64,000 bases of DNA from Pseudanabaena frigida (GTDB taxonomy: Bacteria; Cyanobacteriota; Cyanobacteriia; Pseudanabaenales; Pseudanabaenaceae), in contig QBML01000002.1 of the NCBI GenBank assembly GCA_003242085.1, positions 62,001 through 126,000 on the forward strand, written 5' to 3'. A program made the translations under genes and the position numbers. The notes beneath the pieces are model-generated. The model ran no database searches. It saw nothing but the letters and a program-made list of their open reading frames with translations, and was not told where the DNA came from. Shown here in pieces: positions 575-39,694 of the stretch (its first letter is position 1; every line of letters starts with the position of its first letter).

Positions 575-712
575 TTACCAGTTATCAGCGATCGATTTGT
601 TTTTAATATTTGGGGGATTAGCTATTAGCATTTAGCCGATAGCTTTTTGGTGATTGGATCAGTAATGCGTAATTCGTAATTTCTAATTACCTTACCTTTT
701 ACATTTTTCCTT

Positions 713-1270
713 CTAAACGCCAGCAGTAAGGCTGCTCTTCAAACGACGTAACTGTCCACGAATGCTGGCATCTACGACTTGAGAACCAACTTTAATGATT
801 ACACCACCAATTAGTTCAGGATTGACAGTTACGTCAAGTTCGACACTCTTAGACTTTGTCATCGCTTTGACGCGATCGCGAATGCTATCTTCTTGTGATC
901 TGCTTAATTTCAGAGCAGTTGTGATTTCGGCAAGAGCAACTTCATCAATCACACGCAAAAGCGCTTGAAACTGTTTAACAATCTCACTTAAGAAGGCAAT
1001 ACGTTTGCGATCGACTAACAGAAGTAAAAAGCTTTTGGTTACAGTATTAACTTGAGGACCAAATACACTTTCAACAACTCCTTTTTTGACATTTGCGCCA
1101 ATTAGGGGACTAGCAAAAAGTTGTCTTAAATCAGCTGAATCGCTAAGTGTGTTACCAATTAAGCGCACATCTTTGGCGATCACGTCTAAATTATTTTGCT
1201 CTTGAGCTAAGGACATCAAAGCCTCAGCATAGGGAGCAACTACTGCTTGACTAACAGAACTAGATTTCAT
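713..1270 (-). CDS. atpH: ATP synthase F1 subunit delta
   Basis: Delta subunit (185 aa, normal length), which joins the peripheral stalk to the top of the F1 head. The N-terminal helical domain includes VVAPYAEALMSLAQEQNNLD, and the C-terminal half carries the family signature GGVIIKVGSQVVDASIRGQL. It sits 8 bp downstream of atpF and upstream of atpA, so it is co-transcribed. The cyanobacterial gene name atpH (or atpD in other systems) is used for this subunit. Nothing unusual is visible. Confidence 0.96.
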   Translation of the reverse strand: MKSSSVSQAVVAPYAEALMSLAQEQNNLDVIAKDVRLIGNTLSDSADLRQLFASPLIGANVKKGVVESVFGPQVNTVTKSFLLLLVDRKRIAFLSEIVKQFQALLRVIDEVALAEITTALKLSRSQEDSIRDRVKAMTKSKSVELDVTVNPELIGGVIIKVGSQVVDASIRGQLRRLKSSLTAGV

Positions 1271-1278
1271 GTTTTCTC

Positions 1279-1812
1279 CTAGTCAGAACTCAAAAGGGCA
1301 ATACTACGGTCGATCAACTCGACTTGAGTGGATTCACTCAAACCGCGATCGAAATAAGACTGCACGCTAGCAAGGGCTTTTTCAGCGACTTGTTGGCGCA
1401 ATTGCACGATTACGCGCTCTTGCTCTGTAGCAATCTCTTGATCGGCAGCCTCACGCAAACGCGCAATGTCTGCGTCAACCGTTGCCAAAATCACATCAGC
1501 CGCATGTTTTGCATCAGCTTCTGCTTGTTTACGCAAGTTATCTGACTCAGTTTTGGCTTGAGCTAGCTTTTCTTGCTGTAATGCCAGTTTTGCTGCTGCA
1601 TCTTTTTGGCGCTTTTCTGCATCAGCGATCGCGGATTGGATAGATTCCAAACGCGCTGAGAGAATTTTGCCTAAGAAACCGCGACCTGCGTAGATCAAAA
1701 GACCGATAACGATTACTAAGTTAATCAGGTTAGTTTCCAGAATATCGGAGTTAATCCCGAATCCTGAATGTTCGCCTGCTTCACTAGCAAGTAAGACGAA
1801 ATTTCTAATCAT
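1279..1812 (-). CDS. atpF: ATP synthase F0 subunit b
   Basis: Subunit b (177 aa) of the peripheral stator stalk. It has one N-terminal membrane helix (about residues 25-45, NLINLVIVIGLLIYAGRGFL) followed by a long charged coiled coil rich in Ala, Glu, Lys and Gln. Cyanobacteria carry two related stalk subunits, b and b'; this is the longer b form, placed directly after b' (atpG) as expected. The F0 part lies in the thylakoid membrane, and the coiled coil reaches delta on top of F1. Confidence 0.96.
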   Translation of the reverse strand: MIRNFVLLASEAGEHSGFGINSDILETNLINLVIVIGLLIYAGRGFLGKILSARLESIQSAIADAEKRQKDAAAKLALQQEKLAQAKTESDNLRKQAEADAKHAADVILATVDADIARLREAADQEIATEQERVIVQLRQQVAEKALASVQSYFDRGLSESTQVELIDRSIALLSSD

Positions 1813-1877
1813 AAACGTTACTTCTATTACTCAATATCGGCAAGAAGCCAGACAAGAACTATGTAGGACTATAAAAA

Positions 1878-2375
1878 CTAGGATCTTACTAAGTTACCTA
1901 ATAGCTTTTCTAGAACTTGGCGACTGAGTGATTCCACTTCTGCGTCCAGCGATGCTGTAGCATCTTGTTTTTGCTTTTCAATTTCGGCTTTAGCACTAGC
2001 AACTTTTGCTTGCGCCTCGGCTATGGCGGCATCAATACGTTCTTTACGAATCTTATTTGCATCCGCTTGAGCAGTAGTCAAAATGCTTTGAGTTGCCTTA
2101 CGGGCAGCAGATAACTCTTGCTCATACTGTGTTACAACTAACTCTGCTTTTTCAAGCTGCTCTTTTGCTCCAACAATTTGATCTCTAACATAGTCATCAC
2201 GACCGTCGATCGCTTTAGTCAGAGGCTTAAAGAAAATAACGTTGAGAAGCGCCACAAAAACAACAAACTGCACCGCCATAATTGGAAGTGTGGCATTGAT
2301 ATCAAACAAGCCGCCTTTATGTTCTACTGCTTCCGCAGCAACGAGAACAGTTGAAAAAAGGTTCCAAATTGTCAT
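1878..2375 (-). CDS. atpG: ATP synthase F0 subunit b'
   Basis: Subunit b' (165 aa), the second stalk subunit typical of photosynthetic ATP synthases; it pairs with b to form the stator. One membrane helix (LPIMAVQFVVFVALLNVIFF) is followed by a long alpha-helical region with heptad-like spacing. It lies between atpE and atpF in the operon. The name atpG is used here in the cyanobacterial sense (b'), not for the gamma subunit. Confidence 0.95.
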   Translation of the reverse strand: MTIWNLFSTVLVAAEAVEHKGGLFDINATLPIMAVQFVVFVALLNVIFFKPLTKAIDGRDDYVRDQIVGAKEQLEKAELVVTQYEQELSAARKATQSILTTAQADANKIRKERIDAAIAEAQAKVASAKAEIEKQKQDATASLDAEVESLSRQVLEKLLGNLVRS

Positions 2376-2498
2376 AGGTTATGTTGCTGAAATAGCACTC
2401 TTTTCGGTGCTATTACTAAAGTGCAATTACTGGTGATTTGTATAGAATGGAACAAGGGGCTTAAGCCCCTTGTCTCTGTCTCACAGAATCAGGAATGC

Positions 2499-2762
<264 letters not shown>

Positions 2763-2822
2763 TTAGATTATTTTTAATTGGTTTACATGTATAGGAAGTA
2801 AACTTCCCAGAATCAACTGAGC

Positions 2823-3596
2823 TTAATGCTCATGGCCTTCATCACCATGTCCTTCCATCGCCTCACCAATGTATGACGCTGCCAAGGTCGAAAAAATCAA
2901 TGCTTGGATGGCACTGGTAAATAGTCCCAGAATCATCAATGGCAGAGGTACAAACAAAGGTACGAGGAGAACCATGACCCCCACAACTAGCTCATCCGCG
3001 AGGATGTTTCCGAAAAGACGGAAGCTTAGCGAAAGGGGCTTTGTGAAATCTTCAAGAACCCATAAAGGAAGGAGAAAGGGAGAGGCTTGGATATATCTAG
3101 TGAAGTATTCCAAACCGCGCTTGCTCAATCCAGCATAGAAATAGGCTAAGGAGACTAATAATGCTAGGGCGATCGTGGTATTGATGTCACTTGTCGGGGC
3201 AGCAAGTTCGCCCTCTGGCAATTCGATCAATTTCCAAGGAACTAGCGCTCCTAACCAGTTCGATACGAAGATAAACAAGAATAGACTACCAACAAATGGT
3301 ACCCATTCTCTGTAGTGCTTTTCGCCAATCTGGTCTTTAGCGATGCCCTGAACGTATTCCAGAGCATATTCCATGAAATTTTGAAACCCTGCGGGAACCC
3401 TTTGGTCAGCTTTAGCGGTGCTAGATCCGATAAGCGCAGCAACGAGTACTGCTCCCATGACAATCCAGCTCACGATTAAAACTTGACCATGTACCGCTAG
3501 ATTACCGAACTGCCAATAAAAGTGCTTGCCCACTTCTAGTGCGGCAATACTGGTTTGGTGACTAATTGAATAGCCAAAAGATACTGGATCGATCAT
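2823..3596 (-). CDS. atpB: ATP synthase F0 subunit a
   Basis: Subunit a (257 aa), the membrane stator that forms the two proton half-channels against the c ring. Several hydrophobic helices are visible. The conserved helix with the essential arginine is in the segment [20 protein letters not shown], where the Arg precedes LFGNILADE. The C-terminal tail is His-rich (GHGDEGHEH). The gene follows atp1 and precedes atpE, as in other cyanobacteria. It is named atpB by operon convention (also called atpI in chloroplasts). Confidence 0.96.
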
Positions 3597-37078: not shown

Positions 37079-38983
37079 TTAGATTTCCATTTCGGCAAAA
37101 TGTTCTTGCAATAGTCTATGAATAAAGCGATAGCGTCCACCAACACGCTGAAGAAAAAGTCTTTCTGTGCAATAGTTCAAAAAACCTGCATAGTTCCAAG
37201 GGATAGTTCCCTTACAAAATAGAATAGTTCGTAAAATGAAGTGTTGAATACAGGCAAATCCTCCAAATTTAAGTCCAACCATCAGCCCAAAGAAAAGACC
37301 ATAAACTAGACCTGCAATAATTCCAAAAGACATTTTATCAAGAATTTCACCAAATAACATTCCGCCACTTAAACCAATAGATAAGCCAGTTACTCCAAAA
37401 GTAAGAACGCAAAATAAGGAAGTAAAAAGCGCATTGTTAGCTGATTTCCAAATTCCTTGATTCGGAACGGTTTTAAAAGCTATTTCTACTCCATCCAATC
37501 CATCAATAACACTAGAAAATATTGCCATTAAACTTATAAAAAAACCTAGCATTAATATGATAGCAAACATCATTAATACTCCATGAATAGGACTATAACG
37601 TATCCAATAAACTATTCCCCCAATGATTCCAGCAAGTATAATAATTATCATCGAAGGAATAAACCAAGAAAGAAATGACTTTTTAGCTTTTGTGAAAGAC
37701 CAATCAAATATCTCGGCTAATTTAATTTCTAACATGCTTGCATATCCCAACAATACCCCTATAGAGAATGCCATAACAGAGCCTAAAATGTCACCAAAAA
37801 TTACCCTAATAGGCATTATAAAAAGTAGACACAAAATAAAACCAATAATAAATCTATAAATTATTTTTGACGTATTTAACAACCATGTAGACGGATGCAT
37901 TTTTTCAACTAAAAATTCTGTTTGTGATTCTTTTCCCATTTGTAAAGCTAGGAATTTTAACCAGTATTTTGTTTGTTTGTCCGATGGCAATTTGTAATTT
38001 CTATATGAGATATTTCCAAACCTCCTCCGAAACATTGCCTGAATGTAGGCATCTAGTAAAAGTTTTATAAGATTTTTTGTTGAATTTTGTTTGTGCCATT
38101 CATCCAAAGAAAGTTCACTATAGGAAAGAATTGTAATACTTAACAATAGAGGTGTTCTGACTAATTCCTGTAGTTCTGGGTTGCTTTGTAAAAGCTCCCA
38201 TAGCTCATTTCTATTAATATTAGCTAGATATGACTGAATCTGATTATCTGTCAGCGATTCGAGTAAGATTGCTCCATTTAAGTTTAGTTGAGTCTGATGA
38301 TTTGCATACTCTTCTTGACGACTACATATAACAATGAATAATGGACATAAATCATTATTTAACCAGAGGTTAATCGCATCTATACAAGACTCTTGAAACT
38401 CTGGTTTTACTTCGTCTAATCCATCTAGCATAGGCAATAGCCTTTTGTCTTCTAAGCATTTTCTAAAAATATCTTTGGAAATCTTGTATTTTGAGTTAAG
38501 TTCTTCTATTAACCACTCAGACATTGACTGACGTATATTTTTCCAACTAGATAGATTAATTATTACTGGAATCGGCTCAGCATAATCTTGCTCGGCTTTT
38601 TCAACAAGTGATTTTGCTAGATCTAGCATTGTTGTCGTTTTACCAGCACCTAAATTTCCTAAAATTAGCAGATGTCCTGAAATATCTGGTTTCTCAAATA
38701 TTTCGAGAATACTTGTATTTGGAGGAATAGTTACAGGAGCTTTTGCTCCAATTTTGATTTGTGCATCCCAAGGTCTTTCCACTTGCTCTGGTCGGGATTG
38801 CTTATCCAAGTTGACAAATATACGGTTATGTAGCGAATCTTCTAACCTACAGTTAACTTCTGAATTTACTGTTTTTAGGATTAATTGTTCACTTTGATTT
38901 TGGACAGATTGATTTTGGATCAGGACATTGCCATTTTCGATATTGATTTGATCGCGACCTCGGTTGTCATATTTCCGAGCCAT
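37079..38983 (-). CDS. NACHT-domain NTPase (NLR-like) with C-terminal membrane segments
   Basis: A 634-aa STAND ATPase. It begins with a short motif, YDNRGRDQINIEN (residues 5-17), which recurs at the end of the upstream neighbour. The NACHT domain follows: Walker A LGNLGAGKTTTMLDL (about 108-122), Walker B LLPMLDGLDEV (182-192) and a sensor-like VICSRQEEY. The second half has six or seven hydrophobic segments (FIIGFILCLLFIMPIRVIFG, SMIIIILAGIIGGIVYWI, LFCVLTFGVTGLSIGLSG and others). It ends with a conserved cyanobacterial block (LFLQRVGGRYRFIHRLLQEH). It starts two bases after the neighbour's stop, so they form an operon. It probably acts as the sensor of a cell-death or defence switch. Confidence 0.88.
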   Translation of the reverse strand: MARKYDNRGRDQINIENGNVLIQNQSVQNQSEQLILKTVNSEVNCRLEDSLHNRIFVNLDKQSRPEQVERPWDAQIKIGAKAPVTIPPNTSILEIFEKPDISGHLLILGNLGAGKTTTMLDLAKSLVEKAEQDYAEPIPVIINLSSWKNIRQSMSEWLIEELNSKYKISKDIFRKCLEDKRLLPMLDGLDEVKPEFQESCIDAINLWLNNDLCPLFIVICSRQEEYANHQTQLNLNGAILLESLTDNQIQSYLANINRNELWELLQSNPELQELVRTPLLLSITILSYSELSLDEWHKQNSTKNLIKLLLDAYIQAMFRRRFGNISYRNYKLPSDKQTKYWLKFLALQMGKESQTEFLVEKMHPSTWLLNTSKIIYRFIIGFILCLLFIMPIRVIFGDILGSVMAFSIGVLLGYASMLEIKLAEIFDWSFTKAKKSFLSWFIPSMIIIILAGIIGGIVYWIRYSPIHGVLMMFAIILMLGFFISLMAIFSSVIDGLDGVEIAFKTVPNQGIWKSANNALFTSLFCVLTFGVTGLSIGLSGGMLFGEILDKMSFGIIAGLVYGLFFGLMVGLKFGGFACIQHFILRTILFCKGTIPWNYAGFLNYCTERLFLQRVGGRYRFIHRLLQEHFAEMEI

Positions 38984-38985
38984 AG

Positions 38986-39393
38986 TTACGAGCCACCAAT
39001 TCTAGGATTACCTTGGATATTTTCAATGTTAATTTGATCGCGACCGTAATTGTTGTACTCACGGCTTGAGTTATTTTGATTCTGAATATTGATAATCTGT
39101 TTCGCAATTTGCCTTACTTCCGTAGCAAACACTTCATCCTCATCTAACTCAATATCAAGATATTTTGTCACCTTCTCTAAAGCTGTTGGACTTCCCTGCT
39201 CAACTTCAGCCAAAGCCTTCTCAACTCGTTCATTACCTTGAAATTTTGCCTTAATCTTGTCACGCAGATTTTTTACTAAATCGATCGCACCACCAACAGA
39301 TTTCTTGGCTAATTCGCCAGCGCTAGACTTAGCAAATTCTTGAAAAGCAATTTCAGCAATTTTCGCCGCCGCGATCGCAGATACAGGTTCCAT
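38986..39393 (-). CDS. Small helical Bell-like effector with C-terminal GRDQINIEN motif
   Basis: A 135-aa protein. The first 100 residues are alpha-helical and start with an Ala/Ile-rich amphipathic helix (PVSAIAAAKIAEIAFQEFAK), then AIDLVKNLRDKIKAKFQG and a charged region. This pattern resembles the Bell domains of bacterial NLR-associated effectors, the counterparts of fungal HeLo pore-formers. The C-terminus carries YNNYGRDQINIENIQG (113-128), 11 of 13 residues identical to the start of the NACHT protein encoded two bases downstream. In described systems such a motif pair forms amyloid to pass the signal from the NLR to the effector. Membrane activity is inference. Confidence 0.75.
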   Translation of the reverse strand: MEPVSAIAAAKIAEIAFQEFAKSSAGELAKKSVGGAIDLVKNLRDKIKAKFQGNERVEKALAEVEQGSPTALEKVTKYLDIELDEDEVFATEVRQIAKQIINIQNQNNSSREYNNYGRDQINIENIQGNPRIGGS

Positions 39394-39439: not shown

Positions 39440-39694
39440 TTAATTATTCAAACTAATACATCTGAGAGAGTTATTAGCATAGCGATAACAGGCTTGAATA
39501 TCTGCAAATGTAATATCTGGATAATTACGAAGAACCTCATCAATACTCCAACCTTGAGCCAAAAGATCGATGATAAATTCCACAGCAAGGCGAGTACCTT
39601 TGATTACGGGCTTGCCAACTAAAACATTAGGATTTAGCGTAATTCGATCTTGCCAGTCCATAGAAACATTTGATGTAGAGACTACTGACTGCAT
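39440..39694 (-). CDS. DUF433 family protein (orphan antitoxin-like)
   Basis: An 84-aa DUF433 protein. The family core is DRITLNPNVLVGKPVIKGTR, then FIIDLLAQGWSIDEVLRNYP and TFADIQACYRYA. The family start is usually MxWQDRI, so the Met at 39661 (73 aa) may be the real start. DUF433 genes normally precede a PIN-like DUF5615 toxin gene; here the downstream 46 bp lead straight to the small Bell-like gene's start, so the partner is missing. The C-terminal residues NNSLRCISLNN differ from typical family ends. Confidence 0.8.
   Translation of the reverse strand: MQSVVSTSNVSMDWQDRITLNPNVLVGKPVIKGTRLAVEFIIDLLAQGWSIDEVLRNYPDITFADIQACYRYANNSLRCISLNN

Follow-up and report, generated by a model that had tools for sequence, protein, structure and literature searches.

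Two adjacent genes in the cyanobacterium Pseudanabaena frigida encode a small, predicted helical protein and a larger NACHT protein, and both products carry nearly the same short peptide, centered on the residues GRDQ. What might such a shared peptide be for? The genes lie on the minus strand of a 64,000-nucleotide stretch of contig QBML01000002.1 (positions 62,001 to 126,000), which we call the window. An earlier note on this DNA proposed that they form an NLR-type sensor and its effector, coupled by templated amyloid. Judging from sequence comparisons, we consider it likely that the pair is a two-gene NLR signalosome that signals through a templated GRDQ motif. The shared tag probably enables the sensor to activate its small partner, perhaps, by analogy with published systems, through growth of a templated fiber.

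The shared motif exceeds chance

Both proteins contain the pattern YxNxGRDQINIEN. Our recount of YNNYGRDQINIEN (residues 113-125 of the small protein) against YDNRGRDQINIEN (residues 5-17 of the NACHT protein) gave the 11 identities in 13 positions claimed in the earlier note. When the two proteins are aligned locally, they reach a score of 66, compared with a mean of 33.4 (SD 4.9) and a maximum of 62 in 2000 shuffles of the small protein. Among 139 mechanically defined open reading frames (ORFs) of at least 60 residues in the window, the small protein itself left out, its best partner is the NACHT protein; the runner-up scores 56. In addition, a search of the 5.4-Mb genome with degenerate codons encoding [GDE]-x-D-Q-[IFL]-N-I returned these two sites and no others. 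The match between the motifs therefore exceeds chance.

The motif is conserved as a peptide. Across its 12 codons in the small protein, the P. frigida gene differs from the relative at L050 by five synonymous and no amino-acid changes, and from the more distant L053 by six synonymous and two amino-acid changes. Within single pairs, the two motif copies differ by 2-5 synonymous and 2-4 amino-acid changes (six pairs compared). HIP1 palindromes are common in cyanobacteria, and GRDQ codons can contain GCGATC. We disfavor a codon or HIP1 artifact because the motif residues persist with other codons (CGT GAC, CGT GAT).

The layout proposed for the pair is largely as we find it. On the minus strand, the stop codon of the small protein is followed by 2 nt and the start of the NACHT gene, as had been claimed, and the two are presumably translationally coupled. 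The larger protein is indeed a NACHT ATPase (Pfam PF05729, E 1.9e-7, 31.5 bits against a cut-off of 26.7), and hydropathy supports the predicted multi-helix membrane C-terminus, with residues 368 to 574 containing several hydrophobic stretches long enough to cross a membrane. One detail needs correction: the motif in the small protein is near-terminal rather than terminal, since ten residues (IQGNPRIGGS) come after it. Within this tail, G128, N129, G133 and G134 are invariant in seven aligned sequences.

The motif recurs in adjacent gene pairs across cyanobacteria

We built a profile of 25 positions from 12 motif peptides and searched 388 genomes of the class. At E<=1e-3 it gave 39 matches in 20 genomes, seven of which hold profile peptides or near copies of them (G000, G193, G400, G407, G409, G185 and G574) and 13 of which hold none. 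The earlier note had named wide occurrence in unrelated, non-adjacent proteins as the finding that would count against signaling. Instead, 38 of the 39 matches sit in adjacent pairs with the layout seen in the window, in which a homologue of the small protein carries the motif near its C-terminus and a larger neighbor carries it at the N-terminus. Both members were matched in 18 places (36 matches); in G552 and G590 the small protein alone passes the threshold and its neighbor has a weaker copy. At E<=1 the profile matched 101 of the 388 genomes, and among the matches weaker than 1e-3 only G468 was read (L176, E 0.006). Together with G468 and G211 (L178), the 20 pairs found at E<=1e-3 make a set of 22, one per genome.

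The core of the motif is N-x-G-R-D-Q; a G-N/D turn and another hydrophobic segment usually come after it, for a total of about 25 residues. All 22 small proteins resemble that of the window. Outside Pseudanabaena, each of the 17 is similar to its residues 1-108, with BLAST E values from 8e-48 to 0.002, the weakest being G528 (E 0.002); the five from Pseudanabaena, the window's included, were matched by separate searches.

A looser DNA pattern proved unreliable, as it matched 36 of 386 genomes while a backwards control matched in some too. Among the 29 loci added by this pattern (L055-L083), only L059 and L080 encode GRDQ[IF][NVI]I within ORFs, and these belong to the pairs of G211 and G185, respectively. 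Other ORFs held the looser words GRDQKII (a 212-aa protein at seven loci), GRDQKVI, GSDQNEI and GSDQIDI, and at G213 C116 the pattern codes for GRDQIII in some frame. Separately, an IMG/VR contig (L131, 1-1141) opens with the last part of a GRDQ small protein, next to a NACHT-membrane gene that is both broken and shortened; the genes after this broken pair look phage-like by eye.

The motifs of partners co-vary

The earlier note had suggested aligning the motifs of neighboring pairs from other cyanobacteria, and this alignment shows that partner motifs co-vary. Outside the GRDQ residues, motifs score 30.7 with their own partners, compared with 18.4 +/- 2.65 in shuffled pairs (p=5e-5; 19 pairs, being 21 compared, with G468 excluded, less the near copies G407 and G409). 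The result holds when shuffling is confined to receptor type (p=2e-4) and in ten NACHT-membrane pairs alone (p=0.009). The motifs also fall into two subtypes, with or without the proline of I-N-x-P, which match between partners in 19 of 19 pairs (5 + 14; Fisher p=8.6e-5 for subtypes defined after the motifs were seen). The proline subtype is found on three receptor types.

A wider set of Bell-family genes and neighboring NLRs, spanning several motif classes, behaves similarly. From 51 Bell-family loci, 32 have an NLR within 700 nt by a strict filter, and 20 remain after near copies are removed; their own-partner score is 49.9, compared with 28.8 +/- 2.9 when permuted (p=1e-4). Other tags in the same C-terminus/N-terminus arrangement include GWQTKVEGGTAYIG, NYQIGSI and ISGGTVQG...TITQNF (L023, L027, L036, L037, L039, L087, L046, L113, L115, L118).

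One family of small proteins accompanies four receptor architectures

The larger partners of the 22 pairs, typed by BLAST to the window's NACHT protein, alignment of near copies and Pfam, show four architectures: three types of STAND NTPase, which belong to different families and differ in their C-termini, and one membrane type that lacks a P-loop. The NACHT-membrane type accounts for 12 (G000, G407, G193, G409, G185, G574, G580, G514, G583, G490, G589 and G590), with the membrane region seen in part or not at all in G407, G409, G583 and G590. Six are STAND-TPR proteins of NB-ARC type (G400, G536, G528, G426, G577 and G211), where NB-ARC in G577 and both NB-ARC and NACHT in G426 fall below the Pfam cut-off. 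G505 has an nSTAND1-WD40 partner. The exchange of receptors also occurs close to home: in Pseudanabaena SR411 (L052), the same small protein and motif stand beside an NB-ARC-TPR receptor. Two receptor genes are irregular. In G185 (L053/L021), the first ATG, GTG or TTG comes just after the motif, which is in frame, with CTG at the usual start position, and the reading frame of the G590 receptor is broken.

The remaining three partners (G506, G552 and G468) are membrane proteins 411-468 aa long, in which neither a P-loop pattern nor, at E<=1e-3, a Pfam family was found. Among the 20 pairs found at E<=1e-3, the larger partner is thus a non-NLR in two. Relatives of this membrane protein occur at 16 loci in 16 of 368 genomes. 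These three share the motif with the small protein upstream, and we found no motif common to the neighbor at 11 further, more distant loci; two of the 16 (L182 and L193) were unusable.

Related NACHT proteins carry other outputs at the place of the motif

The genome of P. frigida itself holds three close relatives of the NACHT-membrane core (E 2e-100 to 4e-66). Where the window's protein has its motif, a Ser/Thr protein kinase is found in one (L011; Pkinase E 7e-36) and a nucleotide cyclase in the other two (L012 and L013). Across the phylum, relatives of the core occur at E<=1e-40 in 46 of 386 genomes. The 29 loci that we read include two GRDQ pairs (L098 and L106), two proteins with a kinase-like N-terminus, judged by eye (L111 and L112), and three cores adjoining small proteins with which they share the tag ISGGTVQG...TITQNF (L113, L115 and L118). 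L103 shows a weaker likeness, and no shared tag was seen by eye at the rest of the 29. Because the N-terminus of the core bears either a kinase, a cyclase or a tag, it looks like an output slot in which a short motif can replace an in-cis effector.

The rest of the sensor is less easily placed. The membrane region is its least conserved part in an alignment of six sequences; in relatives it is rich in GLI/GL-type repeats (L050, 2741-4651; L051, 4414-6279). Pfam at E<=1 gave no repeat family (TPR, WD40 or LRR) that could serve as a C-terminal repeat sensor. PADLOC returned weak P-loop-type matches alone (best E 0.0014), and a sequence search of solved structures returned weak P-loop matches to a clamp loader. 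AlphaFold2 modeling of the NACHT protein gave a mean pLDDT (predicted local distance difference test score) of 43.1, and this model was discarded as too poor.

The small protein is a predicted helical bundle

An AlphaFold2 model from seven sequences is all-helical, with helices over residues 9-118 and a mean pLDDT of 66.9. Ten-residue means range from 53 (residues 21-30) to 85, and the motif tail is of low confidence (41-43). A small alpha-helical bundle is a feature of the Bell domain, and the small protein is predicted to have one, at moderate model confidence. No family scored above its cut-off in Pfam, PADLOC or NCBIfam. Two relatives had no Pfam match at E<=0.01, and a third had a BrxL_N match below the cut-off (E 0.0012). 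In structural comparisons, the CC-R chain of plant NRG1.1 (Foldseek E 6.5, VIA Z 2.4) lies within noise. HeLo and MLKL were not listed by Foldseek or VIA-align, and as these listings are noise their absence is no evidence against kinship.

By tblastn, a phage collection yielded no relatives of the small protein and plasmids yielded four partial ones, in Acaryochloris and Pseudanabaena. A paralogue in the same genome (contig C65; L002, 1459-1848, minus strand) has a different tail, ...NIDARDSATVKAIANVENANTINL; no NLR was found adjoining it, and a similar gene occurs in G346 (L097).

How the pair may work

Taken together, the co-variation of partners, the exchange of receptors with the motif kept, and the in-cis effectors of paralogues point to the motif as a homotypic plug between sensor and effector. 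In the mechanism that we favor, the NACHT protein would act as the sensor and, upon a trigger, oligomerize through its NTPase domain, gathering its N-terminal GRDQ motifs. The clustered motifs would stack into a beta-arch, amyloid-type seed able to template the nearly identical motif that the small protein bears close to its C-terminus. Bell-like bundles recruited in this way would cluster at the membrane, the predicted site of the sensor's own C-terminus, and would then damage the membrane or kill the cell, as in the published Bell model. We infer the order from sensor to effector, the oligomerization, the amyloid and the membrane damage by analogy with published systems (excerpts of PMC7889193, PMC8086366 and PMC9815663). 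A more ambitious proposal is that GRDQ defines a distinct class of signaling amyloid, an interchangeable plug that joins one effector family to at least four receptor architectures, non-NLR membrane proteins included, through two insulated subtypes. We put this forward tentatively and would sooner doubt it than assert it.

The templating step is where an alternative has most room. The motif could be a short homotypic docking strand whose stoichiometric beta-strand pairing would bring the small protein to the activated sensor, without any self-propagating amyloid. All of the sequence results need specific pairing alone. Against mere docking, which we regard as unlikely, Gly/Asn/Gln-rich composition is typical of amyloid signaling motifs. 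In addition, the C-terminus/N-terminus layout is that of published amyloid motifs (PMC7889193, PMC8086366), and BASS3, one published class with this layout, is reported to form fibrils (PMC7885112). Alternatively, the NACHT protein might use the motif to hold the small protein inactive, much like an antitoxin, and release it upon sensing. The 2-nt spacing and the small size of the partner would suit such an arrangement, as would the absence of both motif and neighboring NLR in G346. That genome nevertheless retains a shortened small protein with no NLR beside it, some other Bell-family genes, for example at L030, L032, L034 and L097, have no NLR-like ORF in the downstream bases read, and the kinase and cyclase found in cis at the motif's place suggest that the slot passes an output on. 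Inhibition of this kind seems very improbable. The proximity of the two copies might, finally, suggest a functionless by-product of gene fission or local duplication. Conservation and co-variation disfavor this explanation: the peptide is kept across genera while its codons change, the same motif is found on four receptor architectures, and subtypes agree in all 19 pairs, which leaves it scarcely credible.

Several observations weigh against templated signaling from sensor to effector. One profile match is unpaired, lying inside a TPR protein on contig 76 of G505 (L168). This protein (610-3018, plus strand) has an unclassified N-terminal region and an internal motif, GRQYNNYGRDQININSISGDIRIGG, and the same genome has a GRDQ pair elsewhere. 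The distribution of the pair is patchy, with 5 of 26 genomes of the genus having it. In G346 (L022), a 94-aa small protein lacks the motif and no NLR was seen in the adjoining 1.5 kb; this may perhaps be a decaying pair. In the wider set, 10 of 20 Bell-family proteins score at least 60 with their own NLR and one scores 41, leaving nine with no convincing match. Furthermore, 19 of the 51 Bell-family loci had no NLR within 700 nt by the filter, although it is strict enough to have missed the true GRDQ pair L026, and NLR-like ORFs lie downstream at L024, L028 and L029. Because the pairs all have some ancestry in common, the permutation p-values are optimistic. The same co-variation would be expected of a soluble motif that pairs homotypically as a strand. 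The small protein itself adds further doubt. Its N-terminal residues 3-21 are weakly hydrophobic (best 19-residue mean 1.0), so that by hydropathy it appears to have no clear transmembrane helix, unlike Bell as described (PMC7889193). Foldseek (best E 4.2) and VIA-align found no significant fold for its model, and its best match in a sequence search of solved structures is weak (E 0.064).

Features of the locus

Coordinates are collected in Table 1. Just upstream of the pair, on the same strand, lies a gene for a DUF433 protein (window 39440-39694, minus strand; E 2.5e-24). DUF433 is often found in toxin-antitoxin loci; as to a link with the pair, only the neighbors of six relatives were read. 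The neighboring chloride channel gene, used as a guide to insertion at an empty site, revealed no precise one: it was found at E<=1e-100 in three other genomes of 25 searched, and in the two closest (L128 and L129, 89-90% identical) it is adjoined by other genes.

Table 1. Features of the GRDQ gene pair in the window, and tagged membrane partners at other loci.
Feature	Position	Strand	Evidence
Small Bell-like effector gene (putative), 135 aa	38986..39393	-	ORF; similarity to partner proteins of other GRDQ pairs
NACHT-membrane sensor gene (putative), 634 aa	37079..38983	-	ORF; PF05729 E 1.9e-7
Intergenic gap, 2 nt	38984..38985		Sequence; L049, L050, L051, L052 and L054 spaced alike
Predicted helical bundle, small protein residues 9-109	39067..39369	-	AlphaFold2 from 7 sequences
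C-terminal signaling motif (candidate) YNNYGRDQINIENIQGNPRIGGS, small protein residues 113-135	38989..39057	-	Common to next gene; conserved in relatives
N-terminal signaling motif (candidate) YDNRGRDQINIENGNVLIQN, NACHT protein residues 5-24	38912..38971	-	11/13 core identities with small protein; score unmatched in 2000 shuffles
NACHT NTPase domain, residues 106-256	38216..38668	-	hmmscan
Multi-helix membrane region (predicted), NACHT protein residues 368-574	37262..37882	-	Kyte-Doolittle, 19-residue windows up to 2.7
Tagged membrane partner, motif N-terminal	L166 4204-5607	-	Adjoins small effector gene
Tagged membrane partner, motif N-terminal	L173 850-2253	+	Adjoins small effector gene
Tagged membrane partner, motif N-terminal	L176 1083-2315	+	Adjoins small effector gene

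Comparison with known systems

Dyrka et al. 2020 (J Mol Biol 432:6005) reportedly defined bacterial amyloid signaling sequence (BASS) motifs with Bell/NLR gene pairs, as classes BASS1-10. Such motifs, of 20-40 aa, are described in the products of adjacent genes, C-terminal in a small helical protein and N-terminal in an NLR, mainly in filamentous actinobacteria and cyanobacteria (excerpts of PMC7889193, PMC8086366, PMC9815663 and PMC12261475). The pair studied here agrees in gene adjacency, in the layout of the motif and in its length of about 25 residues, within the reported range. It differs in that the small protein seems to lack a clear transmembrane helix, and in that some partners of its relatives (L166, L173 and L176) are membrane proteins without a P-loop. 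BASS motifs also accompany CHAT and TIR domains, though more rarely (PMC7889193), so departures from Bell are already known on the effector side. We found no mention of GRDQINI, or of GRDQ together with amyloid, in open-licence PMC papers, supplements lying outside the search.

In the fungal HET-s/HeLo and HELL signalosomes, as we propose here, a motif at the N-terminus of an NLR templates one at the C-terminus of an effector (PMC7889193). Unlike those systems, the GRDQ proteins gave no fungal amyloid-motif Pfam model among matches at E<=1, and the helical domain has no convincing sequence relative in solved structures and no significant fold match. The bacterial NACHT and Avs antiphage proteins share the NACHT/STAND sensor and a likely antiviral role (PMC10907252, PMC12881547, in part). 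The effector here is instead a separate protein, apparently coupled through a short motif, and the C-terminal part of the sensor is predicted to be a membrane region, not a ligand-binding repeat of a described type. In STAND systems, too, an NTPase sensor is coupled homotypically to an effector on another protein, by effector-associated domains (EADs; excerpts of PMC10907252). EADs are described as adapter domains, whereas here the coupling would be done by a motif of about 25 residues, which in the small protein has low predicted order.

If templating is true, the pair would offer an amyloid signalosome of photosynthetic bacteria that is compact and open to genetic tests. Its natural swaps, with one effector family on different receptors and one receptor family with two motif subtypes, make specificity and cross-seeding testable. 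Membrane partners that lack an NTPase would then show the tag working outside NLRs, and a distinct GRDQ plug, if real, would be a case of bacterial amyloid signaling outside an NLR pathway, an open question according to the excerpt of PMC7889193. Since its layout is that of published BASS pairs, we count the P. frigida pair among the known kind: that it is a further example of the bacterial Bell/NLR type, and not a new kind of system, is well supported. The freshest and furthest-reaching part is the three GRDQ-tagged pairs whose partner is not an NLR.

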